NCBI GenBank assembly: GCA_026745465.1
Contig: JACYXH010000812.1
Location: 3,510,454 to 3,574,453 of the forward strand
Source: Lota lota
Lineage: Eukaryota > Chordata > Actinopteri > Gadiformes > Lotidae
Length of the DNA: 64,000 nt
Direction: 5' to 3'
Shown here one piece after another: positions 7,512 to 13,500 of this stretch (positions are counted from its first letter, which is position 1; each line of letters opens with the position of its first letter). The notes below the pieces were generated by a model. The model was not told where the DNA came from and made no database searches. It saw only the letters and a list, made by a program, of their open reading frames with translations. A program made the translations under genes and the position numbers.

Positions 7512-10500
7512 CTGTGCGGTGGGGATGGGATGCGGGCGACAGGTGGTTCACGGTGTGAAGAGTTGACGATAAAGAAAAAAAAGAACAAAAAATACAATGA
7601 AAAGCAAAGACTGATAACATCTGTCAGTGTTCCTATATTCATGAATTAATCTAAAGATGAAACATGAAGGTCATTCCTGTTTACATTGTACAACTGTGAC
7701 AGATCTCCTGTATGCAGTTCTCTGTATGCAACAGCAATATTTGTATGCAACATGTATGAAGCAGTTATAGATAACAGTAACACATGTTGCAGTAATATGT
7801 AAGGAGAACCTATGTATGTAACATGTACATAGCAGTAATATGTAACAGTTCTCTGTATGTAACATGAACAAATGTATGTTACATGTATGTAGCAGTAATA
7901 TGCAACAGCAACATGCATGTGAACCATGTATGTAACTGTAATACATAACAGCAATATGTGTGTGTGTATACCACATATGTAGCAGTAATATATAACAGTT
8001 CTCTGTATGTAACAGGAACATGCTAAATGTATGTAGCTGTAATACGTTACAGCAACACGTGTGTGAGTACCACATATGTAGCAGTCATATGTAACAGCTC
8101 CCTCTGTGTACTCACAGTCTGTCGGCGCAGTTGTCGGGGCGGTCCAGGAAGCCCCCGTCCATGACGAACTTGAGCACCTGCTCGTTGGACAGGCCCTGGT
8201 AAGGCTGCTCCGCCAGGGTGCTCACCTCCCACAGCACCACGCCAAACGACCTGCGAGAGAGGTGGCACCAGGTCAACTAACACTAGGTAACCAGTGATCA
8301 CTAGCTAGAGAGGATGATCTCACGCACGGCCCGGATCCACTCATGGCCCAATGTCCACAACCCACCTGTAGGTGTCACTATCCAAACCCCGCTCCTTGAT
8401 GACCACATCATTACCACAGGTAATACGCTTGTCTTACATGACTTAATAGTAATAGTAAATAGAATAGTGCATTTATAGTGTGAAGCTAAAGGTCAGTTCT
8501 TGCACAATTTTGTGCAAGAATGTCCATAACATAACTGTCGGTAGCATAGCCAGAATTCAACATCAACACACAAGATCAACATGCACGGCTTTCACACACA
8601 CACACACACACACACACACACACACACACACACACACACACACACACACACACCAGCAGTCTGAGTTTGCGGTGAAGACGCCGTCCTTCAGGGACTCCGG
8701 GGCCATCCAGCGTACGGGCAGCAGGCCCTTGCCCCCCTTCCTGTAGTAGTCCGTCTCGTAGATGTCCCGGGTCATGCCGAAGTCTGCCGGGAGGACAGGG
8801 TTTACGGTTTACATCTCTTCAGAAACACGTTTTAACAATACCAGGCACAGACCTCGGGTAAATAATTGACCGTAGTGTACGGAATGATTTCTGGTGTACT
8901 AGCGAGTAAAAAGCAGACACCAAAAGCAATCTTGAGAAAAAAACCAAAGGAACGTAAACAAATGTTCCAATCAGCCGAACATGAAAAAATGACTAATTGT
9001 CAGCTTCTCATAGTGTCTTGATATTGTGGCAACCCGGCTCCAGGACAGCGCCCCAGGCGGCTCAGGGGAGCGGTGGTAAATGGAGTCTACCACCGCTCTC
9101 TGGAAGATCGCTCGCCGGAGCTCATTAGTGCGGATTGCAATCACCGAAATGGGCGACACCTGCGACCGAAGAGGAGGAAACGCCGATATAAGCAGCGCTC
9201 GGCGTGGCTTTCGGTGTGGAACGCTAAGTGGAACGACACGGGGAGAGAAGCCCCGGCAACACGGGAGCGCTACGAGGAAGGAGATCGCTCGGCAGAGACA
9301 CGAGGAAGGAGATCGCTCGGCAGCGACTCGAGGAAGGAGATCGCTCGGCAGAGACACGAGGAAGGAGATCGCTCGGCAGCGACTCGAGGAAGGAGATCGC
9401 TCGGCAGAGACACGAGGAAGGAGATCGCTCGGCAGCGACTCGAGGAAGGAGATCGCTCGGCAGAGACACGAGGAAGGAGATCGCTCGGCAGAGACACGAG
9501 GAAGGAGATCGCTCGGCAGAGACACGAGGAAGGAGATCGCTCGGCAGAGACACGAGGAAGGAGATCGCTCGGCAGAGACACGAGGAAGGAGATCGCTCGG
9601 CAGAGACACGAGGAAGGAGATCGCTCGGCAGCGACTCGAGGAAGGAGATCGCTCGGCAGAGATTCGAGGAAGGAGATCGCTCGGCAGCGACACAAGGAAG
9701 GAGATCGCTCGGCAGAGACACGAGGAAGGAGATCGCTCGGCAGCGACTCGAGGAGGGAGATCGCTCGGCAGAGACTCGAGGAGGGAGATCGCTCGGCAGC
9801 GACTCGAGGAGGGAGATCGCTCGGCAGAGACTCGAGGAAGGAGATCGCTCGGCAGAGACACGAGGAAGGAGATCGCTCGGCAGAGACACGAGGAAGGAGA
9901 TCGCTCGGCAGAGACACGAGGAAGGAGATCGCTCGGCAGAGACACGAGGAAGGAGATCGCTCGGCAGCGACTCGAGGAAGGAGATCGCTCGGCAGAGACT
10001 CGAGGAAGGAGATCGCTCGGCAGCGACACGAGGAAGGAGATCGCTCGGCAGAGACTCGAGGAAGGAGATCGCTCGGCAGAGACTCGAGGAAGGAGATCGC
10101 TCGGCAGAGACACGAGAGGGAGATCGCTCTGCGTGTCTCGAGCGGGAGGGACCGCTCGCCAGCGATACGAGGAGGCGAACTCACTCGACAGCGACTCCAA
10201 GAAGGAGGTCGCTCGACAGTGACACGGAGGAGTGTCCTGAACCCCGGTAGTCCCCGACGGACGATGGACAAGGGGGACTACCCCGCAAAATACCGGAGGC
10301 TCCACGGGAACCCCCGGCGGCGGTACCTGACCGTCACTGGACCGGAGACGGAGACTATCGTCGCACCTTATTGACCATTTACGTTGGTGTTAGGCACGGC
10401 CTAACCTAAGTATTATTTGTAGTATATGATTTAATTATGGTGAATAAATATGCCCCTTTTGGCTCAAAGTGACTATCGGCTTGTGTTCACTGGGGAGAGA

Positions 10501-13500
10501 CGACAGCATAGTGGAACCGGGTTGCTACAATATATATTATATAATATACGTCCTTGTCAGTACATCACTACAAACACCTAAACGTCTTTAGATGTATTGT
10601 ATTAAATAACGGCAGACTTTGGTGCCCCGGCTGCGAGAGGGACATGTATTGCAGGGTTATCCCTGTCTACTGCAACGCGATTTCGGTTCTCTTACTTCCC
10701 ATGAGCTGTGCATGCCAATTAACAGTCCATGGAGCGATGAGAATAAGAACATGACAACAATAACAACAACAAAGAAGTGAATAAACAGAGACAGATGCTG
10801 CTCTTACGGCAGTTCCTCCACCTCGTTCGCCTCTTGCCGCTAAAATGATGTAGCTGAAACGGCTATCCCTCCCGCCGAAGCATGCTCTGAGTCCTCTCTC
10901 TCGCTGACATACGCACGTGGGCACGATGCTGCACTACATAAGCATAGACCTCCTATGTGAAAGGTTGGGGACCTGCTCACCTCCTATCTTGACAGTCAGG
11001 TCATGAGCCACCATGCAGTTCCTGGCGGCCAGATCTCGGTGGACAAACTTCTTGGCGTTGAGGTAGGCCATGCCGTCGGCGATCTCCGCCGCCATCTGGA
11101 TCATCTCCTTCAGCGTGGGTGGAGGGCGGCCCGGGTTGTTCTGCACCAGACAAACAAACAAACAAACAAACACATGAGGCCAAAGCAGCATTCATTTCTT
11201 AAAAACATGTCTATTTATGGACTGGATTGTGTGTGTGATTACTTTGTCAAAACACCCAAAGACACTTTACAGCATGAATAAAAGATTTCAGCATGAGTTA
11301 CCTCAGAGTCGGGGCGCAGGCAGCGCAGGTAGCTCTTGAGGTCCCCGTGGGTCATCAGCTCCATCACCACCAGGGTGGGCTGACCTTTGGAGACCACGCC
11401 CAGCAGACGCACCTGGTGGCCACACGGACAAGGTTATGGATGGCAAGGCAGGAGACGTTGGAGATGGTTTGCATGAATGACGTGAGCAGCTGCCTCGTTG
11501 TTATGGTTCATGTGAACATCTTCCTAAAACTAGGAACCACCACTAGGGAACATGAACTGGTACAGCAACAGAGAGGGCAGACTAAATCTGTACTGCTTTA
11601 TTCAAAAAAGTGAGACATAATTCGACTGCCTTGTTGTTGCAGTTTTAATAGTTGCTGTTCACCCGATTGGCTCAAACGAGTGTCGAGTGATGTCACTTAC
11701 CATAAAGTGACATCACGCGACACTCCCATCAGCCAATCAGGACCAGAGATCGAAATCACCTGTGTTTCCTCACCAGGCAGCCGCACTGTCCCTACGGTTT
11801 AACTCAGGCATGCTTGGTGACCCTATCCGCCTGTATAAGACTTAAAACTAGTAATCCAGTTCACCAGGCCCACCCCCTCTGTACCCCGCCTGCCGGTGCG
11901 ACCACTCCCCCCCCGGGTCCTCCTTACCACGTGGTGACAGGTGAAGGCCTTCATGACGGACGCCTCGTTGAGGAACTCGATCCTCTCGCGCAGGCTGGCC
12001 GACTCGTTGACCGTCTTGACGGCCACGCGCATGTCGCCCTCGCCCTTCACCACGTCCTTGGCGATGCCCTCGTACACCATGCCGAAGGAGCCCTGGCCCA
12101 GCTCCCGCAGGATGTTGATCTTCTCCCGCGGCACCTCCCAGTCGTCCGGTTCGTACACTGCAGCACGCGCAAACACAAATGCACGCACACACAGACACAC
12201 ACAGACAGACACACACACACACACACACACACACAGCGTTGTGAGATGTTGGTCTGGAGCACGCTAAGCGGTAAACCCGTGTGTGAGTTGTCATTACTGA
12301 TGATTGTCCCCTCAAAGTTGGTGTATAAGATGTTTGCCTTGTGAGTAGTTTAGCGGCTGTCTAGGGACCACTAATGTGCTACAATGACAGTGGGTACTGA
12401 TGTGTAACTTATGGTGGTTAACTGCTACACATCTATGCTTACACACTATATTTAAGGCTGGAGGAATCAGCAGTCATGGCGATTATTCAACATTAGATCT
12501 AGGGTCCTTTAAAAATGCAATAGCAAAATAAATCTGCTTGGTTCCTTCATCACTGACAATGGTGAATGCCAATGCAAATGAATGCCAATAAATTATTTCA
12601 AAGAGGGAATGAGACAGAGAGATACGCAGCACTGAGGCTGTACACATCTGGATAATGAATAATGTCAACCTGAAAAGTCAATCCCAGACCTTTGTCTGGT
12701 GCTGCGGTGTTTCGACTAATGTCTAAAAACATTTCATCCATGATATTTTGTCATGCTCCATAACCCTGTGTTCCTTATTGGACCAGCGTGTCTGATCAAT
12801 ATGAAAGGCTGTACTAAGAGTGGGGTTGCCATGCCACCAGACTTACTGTCGTTAGCGCTGAGGTACTCTGGGTTGGAGGAGGCATAGATGGGTCCACTGG
12901 GCCCCTGGGTTTGTCTGACAAGGATAGAGAACATTTATATAGAGCCCTTTTATACACACCTATATCACTCCAACAACAACACATAAAATAGGATAACATC
13001 ATTTAGTTAGGTAGAGGCTAGTTTGGCATAGTAAATATACGTAGGTCTTTCCTTCTCTGTCAGATTCAATGTGTTAAACAATAATAATATATTTCATTTA
13101 TACAGTGTTTTTCTAGGCACACTAGACACTTTAAAACAAGACCAAATACAAGAATAAAGACTAAGCAAAATATCAATACAAGATTACATTTAAAAGCATA
13201 CAAATTAAGTTTTTCTTGTTTTCCTCTTTGCTGTCTTATGTTGTTTACTGCATGTTTTATTGTATTTAATGTATGCTGCTGCTGTCTTTTCCAGGGCTCT
13301 CTTGTAAAATAGATTAATCTCAATGAGACTAACCTGGTTAAATAAAGGTTAAATGGAAATAAAGAAATAAACTTAAATGAAATGCTAAAAACAATGTGTA
13401 AATGTCAGGAATGTGTAGAAAATGGTTTGAATGGCGTACTTTTTCTTGAACACGACGAAGCCTGCCCCTGCCACAAACAGCAGGAGGATGAAACAGATGA

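Follow-up and report, generated by a model that had tools for sequence, protein, structure and literature searches.

The 64,000-nucleotide stretch of Lota lota DNA analysed here (the window; assembly GCA_026745465.1, contig JACYXH010000812.1) contains exons of the insulin receptor gene on its minus strand. The 2197-bp intron between the exons for the catalytic loop and the activation loop harbours a solo long terminal repeat (LTR), antisense to the gene, with a minisatellite of 28-bp units at its centre. The exons were located by a sequence query; when joined, they match the insulin receptor best in the PDB (2e-127, ahead of IGF1R at 9e-115), which confirms the position given in the first-pass annotation, made from the letters of the window alone. 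Taken by itself, the window feature is unremarkable, a solo LTR whose minisatellite has expanded; its family, in contrast, is unusual. Elsewhere in the assembly, paired LTRs of the same family enclose mosaics of spliced host coiled-coil segments. We are highly confident that the window copy is a solo LTR of a Gmr1-derived, non-autonomous retrotransposon family that captured host messenger RNAs (mRNAs) by template switching.

The solo LTR and its ends

TGTGGCAACCCGGCTCCA begins at 9025 and TGGAACCGGGTTGCTACA finishes at 10529, so that the limits and the TG...CA ends of the LTR-like element proposed in the first-pass annotation are exact. The 16/18 match between the inverted ends was reached by none of 200,000 draws by composition. 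The proposed ATAT target duplications are present at both sides and are weak evidence on their own because the 3' flank is AT-rich. The TATA-like site and the AATAAA were also correctly read (Table 1); when the two parts of the LTR outside the array are shuffled by dinucleotides, motifs of these two types arise in 2.3% and 3.7% of cases. AATAAA lies 109 positions from the end in L017 (L numbers denote loci of the assembly), and the four LTR intervals without it have a 3' end that is unset or cut. The whole 146-nt piece that holds the putative U3 hairpin has a z of −1.93.

A BLASTN search of the whole window for a second copy of the LTR found nothing outside the element at E up to 1. Three 13-base sites in the window lie two mismatches from an LTR end and look like chance. 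The window copy, being a solo LTR without interior, contains no captured exons. An Rfam search of the window returned nothing. There were no matches in viral contigs, in prokaryote genomes (22-base unit) or in phages (whole element), which are unlikely to help for a vertebrate genome. Strings of the 28-bp unit do not occur in the literature searched, and the 13-base string of the 3' end turns up in one apparently unrelated paper on an expressed peptide.

Table 1. Features of the solo LTR and its surroundings (positions in the window, except for the last row, which refers to locus L039). The 29 LTR intervals counted for TATAAR and AATAAA include repeats of the same insertion.
Feature	Position	Strand	Remark
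Insulin receptor exon, DFG and activation loop	8653..8784	-	
5' copy of 4-bp target site duplication ATAT	9021..9024	.	
Solo LTR, 1505 bp	9025..10529	+	antisense to insulin receptor gene
5' terminal inverted repeat, 18 bp	9025..9042	+	pairs with 3' end at 16/18 positions
Hairpin, 14-pair stem	9065..9101	+	in putative U3
TATAAG, putative promoter	9187..9192	+	TATAAR at 154-164 in 27/29 LTR intervals
28-bp minisatellite, 34.2 copies (TRF)	9272..10231	+	in putative R region
AATAAA, putative poly(A) signal	10443..10448	+	84-91 from 3' end in 24/29 LTR intervals
3' terminal inverted repeat	10512..10529	+	
3' copy of 4-bp target site duplication ATAT	10530..10533	.	
Insulin receptor exon, catalytic loop HRDLAARN	10982..11143	-	
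Host myosin A exons, L039	171-294, 467-555, 1102-1225, 1513-1721		best PDB match myosin-9

The 28-bp minisatellite

The array had been estimated at about 30 units; it has 34.2 copies by Tandem Repeats Finder (TRF), with 30 regular copies, whose mean pairwise identity is 95.5%, followed by a decayed right edge. Eight variants make up the regular copies, and at the left two of them alternate. The GC content is 62% in the array compared to 44% in the window, and a search for the unit elsewhere in the window found none.

The first-pass annotation attached particular weight to the absence of stops in six frames. The regular copies are indeed open in all six frames, and the three frames of one strand form one cycle because the unit length is not a multiple of three. 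As a mark of a frameshift-proof peptide, the observation does not hold: of the dinucleotide shuffles of the unit, 38% are likewise open in all six frames, as are 25% of its mononucleotide shuffles, and in the three plus frames of the array there is no Pfam match. Six-frame openness of the unit is thus not special, and a coding role of the array was for these reasons not kept as the main idea. Minus-strand Pfam matches in the array, where two stretches were scanned, are repeat artefacts (0 or 2 stretches pass alone); one match exceeds its cut-off (PF14375, 25.9 versus 24 bits).

Long arrays of the same 28-bp unit lie between family ends in L018, L019 and L020, and the array therefore belongs to the LTR of the family. 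TRF counts 34.2 copies in the window, 23.2 in L018 and 43.2 in L019; in L020, one LTR has 12.2 and the other at least 25.8. The two LTRs of one element are identical at insertion, so the number in L020 changed after insertion. L020 also links the array type of the window to an interior with Rho-kinase exons. Other family LTRs carry about 2–6 diverged units, mostly of 24–30 bp; TRF reports no units in the second LTR of L010, in L014 or in L015. In the L019 LTR (1444-3642, 2199 bp), a minisatellite of 38-bp units (12.7 copies) lies next to the 28-bp one (43.2 copies). It is probable that short runs of diverged units in the putative R region sometimes expand into a long 28-bp minisatellite, as in the window, and that such growth would proceed by slippage or unequal exchange.

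Tandem repeats within LTRs have a parallel in Atlantic cod, where they are reported from many LTR retrotransposons and terminal-repeat retrotransposons in miniature (PMC5241972). In the human genome, 23% of minisatellites and satellites have been traced to transposable elements (PMC3389668). Soybean Gmr9 also carries minisatellites, which are located between the coding region and the LTR, whereas those of the present family lie inside the LTR (PMC3305785).

Paired copies in the assembly

The genome was searched with the first 301 bp of the LTR (at least 110 matches, the best 40 of 661 candidates scored; many are array repeats within one locus) and with its last 298 bp (at least 44 matches, the best 40 of 318 candidates scored). 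Ends paired on the same strand were found in 8 of 20 fetched regions (L009-L015 and L020), which represent six distinct insertions, since L012/L013 are one insertion and L014/L015 another, each present on two contigs. The search for other copies of the ends and of the unit that the first-pass annotation had proposed thus yielded both LTR pairs and the long arrays described above, and the ends flank retrotransposon sequence elsewhere in the assembly, contrary to the outcome that would have refuted its LTR reading, which is right.

Among the 12 other distinct insertions whose two ends were set, 11 have matching 4-bp flanks, and the targets vary; the L011 duplication lies in a GT repeat, where a flank match says little. 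LTR pairs are identical at 679/680 positions in L011 and at a lower proportion in the others. A primer site for tRNA-Ala(AGC) begins two bases past the 5' LTR and is complementary to the 3' end of a gene for this tRNA over 18–19 nt in 4/6 copies. Ahead of the 3' LTR, the eight paired regions have, by sight, a purine tract of AAAGGGTGGAGGAG or close to it. Contig C509 has 20 tandem-like matches to the tRNA 3' end in 21 kb (208273-229179); one unit that was read is tRNA-Ala(AGC), the likely primer of the family.

Solo LTRs do form in this family: in L025 and L026, a solo LTR lies between flanks that match those of the paired L009, with 589/598 and 582/588 identical positions in the 5' flank and 477/483 and 488/491 in the 3' flank. 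L009 and L025/L026 lie on different contigs with near-identical flanks and look like alternative haplotypes or recent assembly duplicates.

Host coiled-coil segments in the interiors

Eight interiors (L009-L012, L014, L020, L034 and L035) of 1079–2056 bp combine gag-like sequence, with a gag-like N-terminus in most of those examined, with varying host coiled-coil segments, mostly in one frame. This mosaic lay beyond what a reader of the window could see. Pfam matches of interior pieces include myosin tail (1.7e-61), Cast/ELKS (4.1e-27) and zinc knuckle (4.4e-7), and PDB sequence matches include myosin-9 (6e-33), ELKS (5.8e-25) and Rho-kinase 1 (2.7e-10). Many of the 14 pieces scanned gave weak coiled-coil matches or nothing. 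No reverse transcriptase (RT), integrase or protease was found in these 14 pieces of five interiors, which do not cover every stretch.

Genome searches with a myosin, an ELKS-bearing and a Rho-kinase piece gave 29, 51 and 28 matches; family ends occur at 10/12, 13/14 (L051 has only the interior end) and 10/10 of the loci cut out, and some loci came up in more than one search. L036, L039 and L053, the three that lack family ends, are the host genes. One captured ELKS piece (L046, C450:141738-142064) lies in a 913-residue open frame, the longest among the ELKS-search matches listed, with family ends on both sides.

Four host genes, namely two non-muscle myosins, ELKS and Rho-kinase, match the interiors exon by exon at 83–98% DNA identity, and eight introns are absent. 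L012 matches the myosin A exons (L039) at 868-992, 990-1080, 1081-1192 and 1187-1390 (95, 92, 85 and 83%; three introns absent) and host ELKS (L053) at 677-714, 711-851 and 848-878 (95, 96 and 94%; two introns absent). L009 matches myosin B (L036; best PDB match myosin-10, narrowly ahead of myosin-9) at 833-896, 894-1130 and 1106-1155 (95, 93 and 98%; two introns absent), and L020 matches host Rho-kinase (L076) at 252-360 and 358-494 (95.4 and 95.6%; one intron absent). Beyond about 1190, L012 is closer to myosin B (88%) than to myosin A (83%), which suggests a switch between myosin paralogues near this point.

At the ELKS–myosin junction of L012 (868-878) the two matches overlap, and both hosts share the 9-base stretch TGAAGGAGC. 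L034 and L035 have this junction at the same place of both genes, and one chimera therefore probably arose once and then spread. Module order varies: a "CLIP-like" piece comes after the ELKS piece in L014 and before it in L012. CLIP-like, MYO18like, ROCK2, modA, modB and modC are provisional labels of our own. A stretch thought to be MYO18A-like has no PDB match and is left unnamed, a second Rho-kinase-like piece (L014) has no PDB match, and the KRENKDLQ piece matches myosin-7 weakly (E 0.0032).

Relatives with pol

The gag-like start has at least 125 matches in the genome, many of them weak (the best 150 of 223 candidates scored). Among nine loci besides L055, which is the copy of L010, seven (L056-L061 and L063) also match the family LTR, over just 54 bases in L058 and L059, and L062 and L064 match the family in the interior only. 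In L057, a zinc knuckle is accompanied by a protease match that stays under its cut-off. L065, which is larger and shares the gag start, has a zinc knuckle that narrowly misses its cut-off, followed by Integrase_p58_C (2.6e-9) and then RVT_1 (2.3e-8); the 3' interior end of the family and the LTR start lie at 6639-6857, and the first 2.5 kb are N. L065 is the one relative with integrase upstream of RT, the order reported for Gmr1 elements (PMC8220671). The chimeric copies differ from Gmr1-type elements in having host exons and no pol match in the pieces searched. In a tree of 47 LTR sequences (about 186 bp), the window copy clusters with two other solo LTRs, L021 and L022, in a part occupied by LTRs of chimeric copies; a separate group consists of the LTRs from L056, L057, L060, L061, L063 and L065.

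Reading frame and selection

A protein role of the fused modules is possible. Neighbouring modules share a frame in 42/46 cases and, outside myosin, 20/23 distinct types of neighbour keep the frame wherever they occur, shares that are biased upward because the modules were first recognised in open frames. L010, L011 and L034 have no stops in the coding frame and 11–22 in each other plus-strand frame. These observations weigh against the captured segments being mere passengers with no protein role, that is, rare accidents of reverse transcription that spread with the family and stayed open since the copies are young and GC-rich. Other observations favour such passengers. Stops interrupt the main frame in L009, L012, L014, L020 and L035, and the frame changes between modules in L009, L020 and L035. 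The ratio of nonsynonymous to synonymous substitution rates (dN/dS) between copies is 0.57–0.71 after a filter for protein identity that biases it downward, yet its bootstrap interval lies below 1 in just 1/6 pairs; the coding frame has the lowest dN/dS of the three frames in 4/6 pairs and a shifted frame is lower in 2/6. Without the filter, dN/dS is 0.58–0.86 (10 pairs). We consider the chances that the segments are passengers to be evenly balanced. More tentatively, and in our view rather improbably, the family may shuffle exons into its own structural protein: host rods would be fused in frame between the gag N-terminus and a common tail during reverse transcription in particles, and would aid assembly into, or packaging by, the particles of autonomous relatives.

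Origin of the element and alternative explanations

The LTR pairs, duplications, primer site, intron-less host exons and, in one relative, integrase before RT are direct observations. The solo LTR would be what remained of a retrotransposon after its two LTRs recombined. The family probably derives from Gmr1-type Ty3/gypsy elements, as related LTRs, the tRNA-Ala primer site and the gag-like N-terminus in most interiors examined suggest, and paired copies carry a spliced host coiled-coil mosaic instead of pol. Host segments were probably gained as reverse transcriptase switched templates onto host mRNAs, pol-bearing relatives may mobilise the chimeric copies in trans, and the window copy presumably came from a chimeric rather than an autonomous element. 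Several points weigh against this account. The window LTR lacks an interior and its own former content cannot be read from it; its placement in the LTR tree uses 186 bp, with branch support not read; and the best matches to its 3' end (C654 twice, C611 and C19) lie outside the fetched regions. L028 has no target duplication, the primer site is only 11 and 13 nt long in the remaining 2/6 copies, and assignment to the Gmr1 clade follows the domain order of one copy, not an RT tree.

A short non-autonomous DNA transposon carrying a minisatellite, for example of the Ginger type with TGTNR ends as in Gypsy LTRs, was considered for the long inverted ends, which at 18 bp exceed the approximately 7 bp described as conserved in LTR ends (PMC3601003); 4-bp duplications are compatible with DNA transposons and LTR elements alike. 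Ginger1 inverted repeats are 40–270 bp and those of Ginger2 about 50–180 bp, with targets CCGG/CCGT or RTATAY (PMC2836005), unlike the 18-bp ends and varied 4-bp targets of the present family. This mismatch, together with same-strand pairs that enclose interiors with a tRNA primer site, rules out a Ginger-like element and makes any DNA transposon exceedingly improbable. It also seems unlikely that the CpG-rich array affects the insulin receptor gene, whether as a regulatory island or by modifying its splicing. Its CpG observed/expected ratio is 1.31 compared to 0.60 in the window, and 89/90 CpG sites are intact in regular copies, as a regulatory island might show; recent spread of one unit explains the intact sites equally well, and the array copy number is unstable, as the two LTRs of L020 demonstrate. 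A solo LTR of a gene-capturing family thus stays the preferred explanation.

Other features of the window

Inverted arms at 54379-54790 and 55676-56087 are 96% alike over 412 bp, and minus-strand frames between them (window 54379-56087) encode what we take, from the translation, to be a Tc1/mariner-like transposase. There is a dispersed repeat pair at 39847-40229 and 60564-60916 (70%) and an inverted pair at 19210-19525 and 19829-20145 (79%). Diverged tandem repeats of about 41–101 bp at 7715-8110 fall, to judge by their positions, within an intron of the insulin receptor gene (between 7525 and 8115). Long dinucleotide arrays are numerous, e.g., 88 perfect copies of TC at 29714-29889.

Comparison with known systems and implications

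LTR-mediated retroposition, reportedly treated by Tan et al. in 2016, appears to be alike in that template switching between element RNA and host mRNA places intron-less host sequence between LTRs; here the chimeras themselves were multiplied and reshuffled, as the ELKS–myosin junction common to L012, L034 and L035 indicates. Host mRNA capture by template switching is documented (PMC5408686, PMC13317346). The closest analogue is maize Bs1, an LTR element in which segments of three host genes form a chimeric frame between LTRs (PMC13317346). The present family appears to be a gene-capturing, non-autonomous LTR retrotransposon of this kind, and differs from Bs1 in its animal genome, many copies, varied module combinations, coiled-coil segments from four or more host genes, gag-like start and LTR minisatellite. 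Bdelloid LTR elements capture extra frames (PMC5408684); in a study on chimeric retrogenes of zebrafish, the term LTR does not appear (PMC3091775). The literature searched, which mostly lacks subscription papers, yielded no description of the present family, and one may be in print elsewhere.

In that literature, multi-gene capture by an LTR element is represented by a plant case, Bs1. The present case comes from an animal: the family has numerous copies, the capture is exact at the introns, one junction falls in 9 bases common to both donors, and the donor genes of the host are found in the same assembly. Retroelement shuffling of host exons, and selection on the products, thereby become directly testable. 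If the fused rods do serve the family as a structural protein, the family would parasitise another parasite and evolve its coat protein out of rods of the host cytoskeleton, those of myosin, ELKS and Rho-kinase among them. A minisatellite in an intron can look plain and yet be the visible part of a gene-capturing family.

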